Below the pieces are notes generated by a model, which ran no database searches, had not been told where the DNA came from, and saw only the letters and a list, made by a program, of their open reading frames with translations. A stretch of 64,000 bases of DNA, taken from the NCBI RefSeq assembly GCF_030811095.1, contig NZ_JAUSQL010000001.1, forward strand, positions 1,364,001-1,428,000. Direction: 5' to 3'. The stretch is from Trueperella abortisuis (GTDB lineage Bacteria > Actinomycetota > Actinomycetes > Actinomycetales > Actinomycetaceae). Below are positions 28,197 through 30,102 of this stretch, one piece after another (the first letter of the stretch is position 1; the number at the start of each line of letters is the position of its first letter). A program made the translations under genes and the position numbers.

Positions 28197-29966
28197 CTAG
28201 CGCAGGGAGCGGTTGACGGCGGACACGATCGCCTTGAAGGCCGCGGTGACGGTGGACGGGTCGAGGCCCACACCCCACAACACTTGGCCGCCGACCTCGC
28301 ATTCGACGTAGGAGGCCGCCGTGGCGTCCCCGCCCGAGGACAGGGCGTGTTCGGCGTAGTCGAGCACCCCGACCTCGATGCCGAGCTTGGCCAGCGCCGA
28401 GGTGAATGCATCGATGGGGCCGTTTCCGGTGGCCGCTACCGTGCGATCCGTCGTGTTTTCGCCGTCGCGCTCGGTGAGCGTGACGGTCAGGACTGTCTGG
28501 TGACCCTCGTCCGCCGTCGTGACCGTGGTCCCGCGCAGGGAGTAGCGACCCCACGGACGCAGGCCCTCAGCTGCGGTGTAGGGCAGGTACTCGTCGACGA
28601 AGATCTTCCACAGCTCGTCGGCCGTGACCTCCCCGCCGAACACGTCGGTGCGGTGCTGGACAAGGTTGGACACCTCCACCTGGAGGCGCCGCGGCAGGTC
28701 GAGATCGCGCGTGGAGGACAGCAGGTAGGCCACCCCGCCCTTGCCGGACTGGGAGTTGACGCGGACCACGGCCTCGTAGGAGCGGCCCACGTCCTTCGGG
28801 TCGATCGGCAGGTAGGGTATGTCCCACGGCACGGCGTTCTCGTCGCCGCCCGCGGCGACGACCTTGCGGGCGCGCGCCGCGAAGCCCTTCTTGATGGCGT
28901 CCTGGTGGGACCCGGAGAAGCTGGTGTAGACGAGGTCACCGCCATACGGCGCGCGCGCCGGGACCTCCATCTGGGTGCAGTGTTCAACAGTGCGGCGGAT
29001 CTCGTCCAGGTTCGACAGGTCGAGCTGGGGGTCGATCCCGTTGGAGAAGAGGTTAAGGGCCACGGTCACCAGGTCCACGTTGCCGGTGCGCTCGCCCTGG
29101 CCGAACAGGCATCCCTCGACCCGGTCGACGCCGGCAAGCATCGCCAGCTCGGTGGTGGCGACCCCGGTGCCGCGGTCGTTGTGGTTGTGGGCGGACAGGG
29201 CGATGTACTCGCGCCTAGATAGGTTGCGGCTCATCCACTCGATCTGATCGGCGTACACGTTCGGGGTCGAGCGCTCGACCGTGGTGGGCAGGTTGAGGAT
29301 GATCTCCCGGTCCGGGCCCGGCTGCCATACGTCCATGACGCCCTCGCACACCTCGAGGGCGAAGTCGAGTTCAGTGTCGACGAAGATCTCCGGGGAGTAT
29401 TCGAAGCCGACGATCGTGTCATCGTCAAAGCTCTTCTCCATGTAGGAGACGAGGTCCTGGGCGCCGGAGACGGCGAGCTGCTTGATCTGCTCGCGATTCA
29501 TGTTGAACACGACCTCCCGGAAGACCGGCGCGGTGGCGTTGTAGAGGTGGACGGTGGCGCGCGGAAGGCCCTGCAGGGCGTCGACCGTGCGGTGGATGAT
29601 CTCCGGCCGGCTCTGGGTCAGCACCGAGATCGTCACGTCCTCGGGCACGGCGTCGTCGTCGACCAGCGAGCGCACGAAGTCGAAGTCCGCCTTCGAGGCC
29701 GCGGGAAAGCCCACTTCGATCTCCTTCAGGCCGATTGCCACGAGGAGGTCAAACATTTTGCGCTTCTTGGCCGGGTCCATCGGGTCGATGAGCGCCTGGT
29801 TGCCGTCGCGCAGGTCGGTGGACAGCCACCGCGGAGCCTTCGTGATGCGGTTGTTCGGCCACGTGCGGTCCGGAAGGCTGACCGGGTTCGTGTCGAGGAA
29901 ATGACGATACTTTCCGATAGGCATCGCCGAGGGTTGCTGTTGCGTTCCAAAGCCTGCTGTCTTCAT
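28197..29966 (-). CDS. leuA: 2-isopropylmalate synthase
   Basis: 589-aa first committed enzyme of leucine synthesis, condensing acetyl-CoA with 2-ketoisovalerate. The HMGL-like TIM barrel has STDLRDGNQALIDPM near residue 50, EVGFPAASKADFDF and ALSAHNHNDRGTGVA (metal ligands). The C-terminal third is the LeuA allosteric dimer domain for leucine feedback. This long form with an N-terminal extension (QQPSAMPIGKYRHF) is typical of actinobacteria. AAGGGAG precedes the ATG by 5 nt. Expression is probably controlled by the leucine leader upstream. Confidence 0.96.
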   Translation of the reverse strand: MKTAGFGTQQQPSAMPIGKYRHFLDTNPVSLPDRTWPNNRITKAPRWLSTDLRDGNQALIDPMDPAKKRKMFDLLVAIGLKEIEVGFPAASKADFDFVRSLVDDDAVPEDVTISVLTQSRPEIIHRTVDALQGLPRATVHLYNATAPVFREVVFNMNREQIKQLAVSGAQDLVSYMEKSFDDDTIVGFEYSPEIFVDTELDFALEVCEGVMDVWQPGPDREIILNLPTTVERSTPNVYADQIEWMSRNLSRREYIALSAHNHNDRGTGVATTELAMLAGVDRVEGCLFGQGERTGNVDLVTVALNLFSNGIDPQLDLSNLDEIRRTVEHCTQMEVPARAPYGGDLVYTSFSGSHQDAIKKGFAARARKVVAAGGDENAVPWDIPYLPIDPKDVGRSYEAVVRVNSQSGKGGVAYLLSSTRDLDLPRRLQVEVSNLVQHRTDVFGGEVTADELWKIFVDEYLPYTAAEGLRPWGRYSLRGTTVTTADEGHQTVLTVTLTERDGENTTDRTVAATGNGPIDAFTSALAKLGIEVGVLDYAEHALSSGGDATAASYVECEVGGQVLWGVGLDPSTVTAAFKAIVSAVNRSLR

Positions 29967-30010
29967 GGTTTCTCCCTTAAGTCTTGCGAGTGGTTAGCCA
30001 ACACGAATAC

Positions 30011-30045
30011 CCGCGGGGAGGTGTCAGCCGGTGACCTCCCCGCGG
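30011..30045 (-). promoter_or_regulatory. leuA attenuator stem-loop
   Basis: Perfect 12-bp stem, arms 30034-30045 and 30011-30022, with an 11-nt loop containing the leader stop codon region. On the mRNA it begins 5 nt after the last leucine codon. The trailing sequence GTATTCGTGTTGG has some U but no true U-tract, so it may act as a weak terminator or by blocking access downstream. No competing antiterminator stem was found by eye. Confidence 0.65.
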
Positions 30046-30068
30046 CAACTAAGCAGGAGCAAGAACAT
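30024..30068 (-). CDS. leuL: Leucine leader peptide of leuA
   Basis: 14-codon open frame: MFLLLLSCRGEVTG with four consecutive leucine codons (TTG CTC CTG CTT). Its ATG lies 6 nt after a TAGGGT -10, so it is probably translated from a leaderless mRNA. A 12-bp stem-loop starts right after the leucine run, inside the frame. When Leu-tRNA is scarce, ribosomes stalling on the leucine codons would cover the 5' arm of that stem. This is the classic layout of amino-acid attenuators, known for leuA in actinobacteria. Too short for ordinary gene callers. Confidence 0.8.
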   Translation of the reverse strand: MFLLLLSCRGEVTG

Positions 30069-30074
30069 GGCACT

Positions 30075-30102
30075 ACCCTACCCGCCGGGCGGTCGGGTGC
30101 AA
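30075..30102 (-). promoter_or_regulatory. leuL-leuA promoter
   Basis: TTGCAC (30102-30097, minus strand) and TAGGGT (30080-30075) are spaced by 16 bp, a good sigma-70 type pair, and 6 nt then separate the -10 from the leader-peptide ATG. The predicted transcript starts at or beside that ATG. Confidence 0.6.

Follow-up and report, generated by a model that had tools for sequence, protein, structure and literature searches.

A probably leaderless leucine leader upstream of leuA in Trueperella abortisuis, and a comparison of related LEU-type leaders

In the leu, his and trp attenuators of Escherichia coli a ribosome stalls at codons for the product of the pathway, and the E. coli leader leuL contains rare codons. 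The leaderless cysteine uORFs of mycobacteria likewise place product codons before a biosynthetic operon. For leuA of related Actinobacteria, the description by Seliverstov and co-workers (2005; PMC1262725), as far as its text was available, is of a 'LEU element' with a leader ORF containing Leu codons, a base stem that these codons form with the leuA Shine–Dalgarno (SD) sequence, a pseudoknot and an alternative hairpin; there the mechanism was left open, with the authors preferring a binding protein. The control of leuA in Actinobacteria has been an open question since the codon-mutation results described in that paper. Other accounts, again in the parts available, report four consecutive Leu codons in the leuA leader of Corynebacterium glutamicum (PMC4046766, PMC3890552), a counterpart in C. 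diphtheriae to which no transcription start is assigned in the relevant text (PMC5784534), a ribosome-protected uORF before leuA of Mycobacterium abscessus, the peptide of which is not printed in the portion concerned (PMC4974804), and a product-codon uORF before the ilvB biosynthetic operon of Corynebacterium (PMC10272879). The element analysed below has already been described in related bacteria, and what a comparison of many genomes adds is a sharper view of how it probably works.

The stretch of DNA analysed here (the window; 64,000 nucleotides of T. abortisuis) carries leuA and its leader on the minus strand. A preliminary description had drawn attention to a 14-codon frame with four consecutive Leu codons running into a perfect 12-bp hairpin, and this arrangement was confirmed in the sequence, with 44 nt separating the hairpin from the leuA ATG at 29966. 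The features, with the type of evidence in brackets, are:

28197..29966, minus strand: leuA, 2-isopropylmalate synthase, 589 aa, the putatively regulated gene (ORF)
29972..29976, minus strand: leuA Shine–Dalgarno sequence GGGAG, predicted 3' strand of the base stem (fold)
29996..30002, minus strand: putative pseudoknot 3' strand GUUGGCU (permutation control)
30011..30022, minus strand: hairpin 3' arm ACCTCCCCGCGG (sequence, fold, permutation)
30023..30029, minus strand: putative pseudoknot 5' strand GGCUGAC, which spans the stop codon within the hairpin loop (permutation control)
30034..30045, minus strand: hairpin 5' arm CCGCGGGGAGGT (sequence, fold, permutation)
30024..30068, minus strand: uORF MFLLLLSCRGEVTG, 14 codons, probably leaderless (sequence)
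30051..30062, minus strand: sensor codons TTG CTC CTG CTT, four Leu (sequence)
30055..30059, minus strand: CUCCU within the Leu codons, candidate anti-SD strand of the base stem (fold, and permutation tests over relatives)
30075..30080, minus strand: −10 box TAGGGT, separated by 6 nt from the ATG of the uORF (sequence, and box placement in relatives)
30097..30102, minus strand: −35-like hexamer TTGCAC, a weak match, absent from the consensus scan (sequence)

The uORF reads ATG TTC TTG CTC CTG CTT AGT TGC CGC GGG GAG GTC ACC GGC TGA (30068–30024). Its second half forms the 5' arm, which begins 5 nt after the last Leu codon, and most of the 11-nt loop, within which the TGA stop lies (30026–30024); all 12 of 12 hairpin pairs can be made. 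The candidate anti-SD stretch is situated 9 nt from the predicted 5' end of the message. The promoter had been called good. Its two elements are indeed present, spaced as TTGCAC-16-TAGGGT-6-ATG, but each hexamer has only 3/6 matches to the E. coli consensus and the scan reports no promoter here. Although weak by this measure, a TAnnnT box about 6 nt before the start is what has been mapped as the −10 in Streptomyces lividans, where, according to the portion of PMC8079986 available, it lies 4–9 nt (mean 6.3) before the transcription start. The observation that the stem has no real U-tract also held: a terminator scan gave 0 terminator-like sites, and no T-run follows the hairpin.

Relatives were gathered from a leuA search of 59 genomes, our own included, which gave a match in 52, one of these (G033) being only a 57-residue fragment; 30 loci were fetched from this search. 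The seven genomes with no leuA match (G026, G030, G031, G032, G036, G038 and G047, from the same family or order) and the one with the fragment may be those of leucine auxotrophs, or have assembly gaps. A further 80 named loci, the best 80 of 593 confirmed candidates in genome contigs, brought the total to 110. The best-scoring named matches were from Arcanobacterium, at 76% identity, and a related protein at L148 scores as 2-isopropylmalate synthase (NCBIfam). At 102/110 leuA loci a fixed regular expression picked up a short ORF that is rich in Leu and ends in a similar tail with arginine (CRGE, CRDE and variants), which speaks against chance; the earlier assignment as a leucine-type leader of leuA is supported. 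At L008 the expression chose the wrong frame and the leader was set by hand. Codons and base stems were counted at 99 of the 110 loci, leaving out L022, L024, L047, L107, L109 and L110 (where a leader could not be recognised or upstream sequence was missing), L021 (where the script missed the hairpin, though the leader has CTGCTCCTT) and L004, L015, L023 and L027 (with unusual or displaced leaders). The pseudoknot was tested on 101 leaders, that is, all 103 but L004 and L027, and the alignment comprised 96, with identical rows and L004, L020, L023 and L027 omitted. Shared ancestry is reduced only in the tests on 32 representatives with mutual similarity below 0.78.

Loss of the Leu codons in close relatives had been named as a point that would speak against a leucine leader. 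They are mostly kept: among the six same-genus loci with an upstream region, four (L002, L005, L006 and L007) have three to four consecutive Leu codons, and L003 has ALVLM. About 100 nt upstream of leuA, L004 (same genus, genome G005) retains the hairpin and encodes FLLI with no normal start codon; no TAnnnT box is in place, and the hairpin is one base shorter, so that the stop is out of frame. Judged by its letters, this leader appears to be a decayed or altered element.

The position of the −10 box indicates that, throughout the family, the uORF has no untranslated leader or hardly any. The TAnnnT box ends 5–12 nt before the uORF start in 91/104 leaders, compared with 156/8240 control positions shifted upstream (1.9%) and 58/7280 shifted downstream, and SD-like 4-mers precede only 4/104 uORFs. 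In-frame starts lie 5–10 nt after the box in 101/103 leaders (76 of them at 6–7 nt), a count that favours the claim, since starts were chosen to fit a box 4–10 nt away; the 91/104 test is the stricter one. The leaders without a leaderless start are L004 and L062. For the 22 leaders with a gap of 9–10 nt, the message might start a few nucleotides upstream of the start codon. The other end of the reading frame is equally regular: in 101/103 leaders (not L004 and L036) the distance between the beginning of the 5' arm and the stop is 13, 16 or 19 nt, which places the stop in the loop. Thus, the window uORF is probably leaderless, as had been suggested; box placement in relatives and LeuL1 of S. 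lividans, the transcription start of which has been mapped according to the text seen of PMC8079986, both support this.

The whole-leader fold of the window is only mildly better than that of shuffled sequences (z −1.78; 13/200 as good), and the case against chance therefore rests on the relatives. RNAalifold, applied to the 96 aligned leaders, returned eight hairpin pairs, four of which have changes on both sides. When the strands of the 32 representatives were permuted among them, the hairpin arms scored −21.12 kcal/mol with their own partners against −17.56 (sd 0.44) with permuted ones (0/5000 as good), and the pseudoknot score was 18.16 against 14.43 (sd 0.46; 0/5000). The base stem, over 30 representative loci, gave −11.51 against −10.17 (sd 0.41) kcal/mol (6/5000).

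At single loci, the own pseudoknot pairing exceeds the swap mean in 80/101 leaders, and p ≤0.1 against shuffled downstream sequence is reached in 57/101. The strands of relatives differ widely whilst remaining complementary (GGCCGG/CCGGCC, GACTGGC/GCCAGTC, GATCGAC/GTCGATC, TGCCGAG/CTCGGCA and others). In the window, seven pairs are possible (30029–30023 with 30002–29996), three of them G–U, their position being taken from covariation. The base stem appears in the minimum free energy fold of the window up to the leuA start codon, where CUCCU (30059–30055) pairs with GGGAG (29976–29972) through five pairs, one of them G–U, at a pair probability of about 0.42–0.55. It is gone (probability ≤0.005) from window folds with ≥20 nt of leuA coding sequence, the Leu codons being engaged there by the first part of the leuA reading frame (0.87–0.99). 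In these longer folds, window 30057–30052 (CCUGCU) pairs with AGCAGG of leuA codons 3–5 with high probability. The single-locus swap is weak for the base stem, own pairing exceeding the swap mean in only 56/99; a permutation of means over the leuA loci with a wider SD stretch gave 0/5000. Base stems also shift along with the codons, as in L039 (GCUGCUUCC with GGAAGCAGC) and in L075 and L081 (CUUCUGCUUC with GAAGCAGGAG). At the level of the family, therefore, the hairpin, the pseudoknot and the base stem between Leu codons and leuA SD all exceed their permutation controls.

Sensor codons were numbered so that the third base of codon −1 is the first base of the 5' arm, which makes the CTT of the window (30053–30051) −3. 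Leu is found at −3 in 99/99, at −4 in 97/99 and at −5 in 96/99 leuA leaders, with a synonymous mix of CTC, CTG and CTT at −4 and −5. Codon −3 is CTT in 94/99, against a share of 3.2% for CTT among 4182 Leu codons in the same leuA genes. CTCCT occurs in 73/99 Leu runs, where 40.0 would be expected from their own codon usage, and 22 of the 26 leaders without it still have three Leu codons at −5 to −3. The leaders thus retain Leu as the encoded residue and also a sequence resembling an anti-SD. When the runs are shuffled synonymously, however, on average 40% of draws match or exceed the real pairing with the SD, and only 17/99 loci fall in the best 5%.

More generally, rare synonyms with T or A as the third base (CTT, GTA and sometimes ATT) are frequent among the sensor codons, in genomes that are mostly of high GC content. 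CTT and ATT are nevertheless read by the tRNAs that also read the common CTC and ATC. The rare CTT as the final sensor codon, like GTA in the versions before leuB, may slow decoding through wobble or leave this part of the RNA with little structure.

A covariance model built from the 96 leaders found matches in 142/148 genomes of the class and 80/82 genera; its E-values are rough, and neighbouring genes were checked for part of the matches. In our own genome it found one strong site, that of the window, at 54.5 bits, which belongs to the training set. A candidate for a second element in this genome (L112; 19.7 bits, E 0.07), antisense within an Ala-rich ORF, was judged to be a chance match. 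The own leuB and leuC were located, and neither a Leu leader nor a model match is present in the 400 nt upstream of them, so that here only leuA appears to be under such control. The 30 best-scoring model sites all precede leuA. Among 20 further fetched sites, mostly second matches, eight precede leuA or a leuA paralogue, eight leuB, two leuC and two none of these; NCBIfam identities were obtained for ten of the proteins downstream. The two leuC cases (L145 and L146, both from family f19) are strong ones, with LEU-type leaders VRAQRLLLRCRGGASS and MRRVVLLLSSRDETSF directly before the gene. None of 30 other leuC loci has the element as a leader, the one weak match (L207) being on the strand opposite to leuC. 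LEU-type leaders MSRMLVVRRSGV and MSWQKLLVTRRSGV also stand before small proteins at L160:200-705 and on the minus strand of L162. The first of these proteins consists of a LeuA allosteric domain on its own (PF08502, E 2.4e-6), and a separately encoded leucine-sensing domain would be unusual; the second has no family match. Rfam 15 gave 0 matches in the window at the gathering score, for T-box or any other family, only one viral microRNA family and one snoRNA family, far below their cut-offs, at E up to 10, and 0 matches in ten relatives at E up to 0.5. An element that no Rfam 15 family recovers at threshold in the window or these ten relatives is easily left unannotated.

The copies before leuB provide a natural experiment. 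The element lies upstream, on the leuB strand, in 13 of the 30 best-scoring leuB loci (E up to 3e-4), and these together with L149 and L161 make 15 distinct leuB leaders, from six other families; the leuB leaders among the fetched second matches are L143, L144, L149, L151, L154, L156, L158 and L161 (at about nt 200–300 in gene orientation). All 15 have a start 6–10 nt after a TAnnnT box, mostly 9–10. Their residues at −6 to −3 read VRIL, IFVL, ALIL, LVIL, LVLI, LVVI, FVLI or VLIL, so that Ile or Val occurs at −5 to −3 in 15/15 leuB leaders and 2/99 leuA leaders (Fisher p 6.5e-17, uncorrected for ancestry). Rare synonyms are again prominent. GTA makes up 13/16 Val codons in leuB leaders against 6/484 in 13 leuB genes, with corresponding figures of 12/20 against 10/418 for CTT among Leu codons and 5/15 against 4/157 for ATT among Ile codons. 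The branched-chain transaminase gene ilvE follows leuB in 5/5 regions fetched, and citramalate synthase (cimA) was found in 3/3 post-leuB regions with a candidate ORF examined. Ile and Val codons before leuB are what codon sensing predicts, and a codon content that follows the neighbouring pathway points to ribosome stalling as the sensor and argues against an element that only binds a protein.

Element and gene lie further apart before leuB than before leuA, frequently with a small ORF between them. Judged from the individual rows, the sensor stretch appears to pair best just upstream of the next small-ORF start in 5/15 leuB leaders, and elsewhere in 10/15; the five are L194 (−19.3 kcal/mol), L196 (−16.2), L149 (−15.6), L167 (−17.5) and L161 (−12.0). 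The small ORFs themselves recur, one type ending like QESMDRRDNGGETGH or variants of it (L177, L176, L194, L196, L167, L180, L149 and L161) and another reading like MNSYPIEWGPAHLRDDA...PDDN (L182, L170, L191 and L188).

On balance, we lean towards reading the window leader, a LEU element by its features, as a leaderless leader-peptide switch that sets leuA translation by the supply of leucyl-tRNA. RNA polymerase would start at the ATG of the uORF, and a 70S ribosome would load on the 5' end. With enough leucine, the ribosome would pass the Leu codons, end in the hairpin loop and leave; the hairpin and pseudoknot would then hold the Leu-codon stretch close to the leuA start, where it would pair with the SD GGGAG or, in the longer predicted folds, with leuA codons 3–5, allowing little leuA translation. 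With little leucine, the ribosome would stall on the Leu codons and physically cover the stretch (nt 10–14, if it stalled on codons 3–6), so that the leuA start would stay free. The preliminary description had the stalled ribosome covering the 5' arm of the hairpin. That was incomplete, as it considered the hairpin without the pseudoknot and base stem; if the Leu codons pair with the leuA SD, it is chiefly their pairing stretch that a stalled ribosome would cover, not the 5' arm. The pairing of sensor codons with the SD region across the family, together with the missing terminator, argues for a translational output. Counting against this reading, and lowering our confidence in it, the base stem of the window is weak and is lost in the longer folds. 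Mutations in the leuA leader of S. coelicolor, as reported in the available text of PMC1262725, had an effect of some kind that did not match classical attenuation, and this too counts against it. So do the three G–U pairs among the seven of the window pseudoknot, the weak single-locus swap (56/99), the 40% of synonymous shuffles that pair as well, the 10/15 leuB leaders with their best pairing elsewhere, and the tRNA that rare CTT has in common with CTC.

Three other explanations were weighed. We consider transcription attenuation or Rho-linked termination unlikely, in which RNA polymerase would be released ahead of leuA or not according to where the ribosome stands on the uORF. Actinobacteria do have classical attenuators, known or predicted, for trp and leuS, and terminators after ilvB leaders, according to the text seen of PMC1262725, and the 44 nt that separate the hairpin from leuA, when left untranslated, could include a site sensitive to Rho. 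However, the T-run and terminator-like sites that intrinsic termination would use are absent here, LeuL1 of S. lividans is likewise described, in the part seen of PMC8079986, as lacking a typical terminator, and the family-level pairing of Leu codons with the SD region has no role in such a model. In another reading the uORF serves to load ribosomes near leuA by translational coupling, with no sensing, and owes its Leu content to the anti-SD stretch. The Leu run does contain CTCCT more often than codon usage predicts, and CTC and CTT are what an anti-SD sequence needs in this frame; yet three Leu codons are retained at −5 to −3 by 22/26 leaders that lack CTCCT, and the leuB leaders carry Ile and Val rather than arbitrary codons, which makes coupling alone improbable.

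Similarly improbable, in our view, is that the element mainly serves to bind a regulatory protein, such as the ML1624-type helicase of Seliverstov 2005, with the peptide incidental. The conserved hairpin and pseudoknot would suit a bound protein, as would the S. coelicolor codon mutations as told in the available part of PMC1262725. If the codons were irrelevant, however, synonymous yet Leu-preserving variation would not be expected at the sensor positions, and neither would starts and stops that are each in place in 101/103 leaders, nor Ile and Val codons before leuB.

Extending the translational reading from the window to the class is more tentative, and we put it forward with somewhat less than even confidence: the LEU element could be a class-wide, re-programmable translational switch in which the sensing codons are themselves the strand that shuts the gene start, on a leaderless message. 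If so, codon identity and base pairing would be under one selection, and before leuB the sensor codons would have become Ile, Val and Leu codons while the pairing with the next start changed along with them in at least 5/15. Pairing of a stretch that begins just 9 nt from the 5' end would also block the loading of a new 70S ribosome, making the switch latch-like. The codon mutants of S. coelicolor would then be non-classical because sensor and lock change at once. The comparison thus offers a concrete and testable mechanism and, in the leuA and leuB leaders, a natural experiment.

Compared with known systems, the window leader shares with the leu, his and trp attenuators of E. coli the product-codon peptide, and has neither their intrinsic terminator nor their SD-led peptide; in the window, an intrinsic terminator before the gene, which marks a classical attenuator, was not found. 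The mycobacterial cysteine uORFs resemble it as product-codon uORFs before biosynthetic operons, for another amino acid. The ilvB uORF of Corynebacterium (in the part of PMC10272879 available) concerns other amino acids again, and the likeness is at the level of the uORF. A closer match is LeuL1 of S. lividans, MRFGLLLLSCRGEGL, as given in the portion of PMC8079986 seen: it too is a leaderless Leu leader before leuA, with the same CRGE tail and no typical Rho-independent terminator, and differs in that its transcription start is mapped whereas that of the window is predicted. The LEU element agrees with the window in its Leu-rich leader ORF, base stem, pseudoknot, lack of a terminator and position upstream of leuA, with no essential difference, the match being to the text description in PMC1262725 rather than to alignment letters; the 12-bp hairpin of the window is a candidate for the alternative hairpin that shares the base stem in the published element. 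In searches of mostly open-access papers we found no report of a LEU-type element before leuB, leuC or a LeuA_dimer protein. Beyond the LEU text as far as it was available, what is added here is the leaderless placement as a family-wide trait, the rare-codon bias, and the element's occurrence, in other genera, upstream of leuB, leuC and a LeuA_dimer protein.
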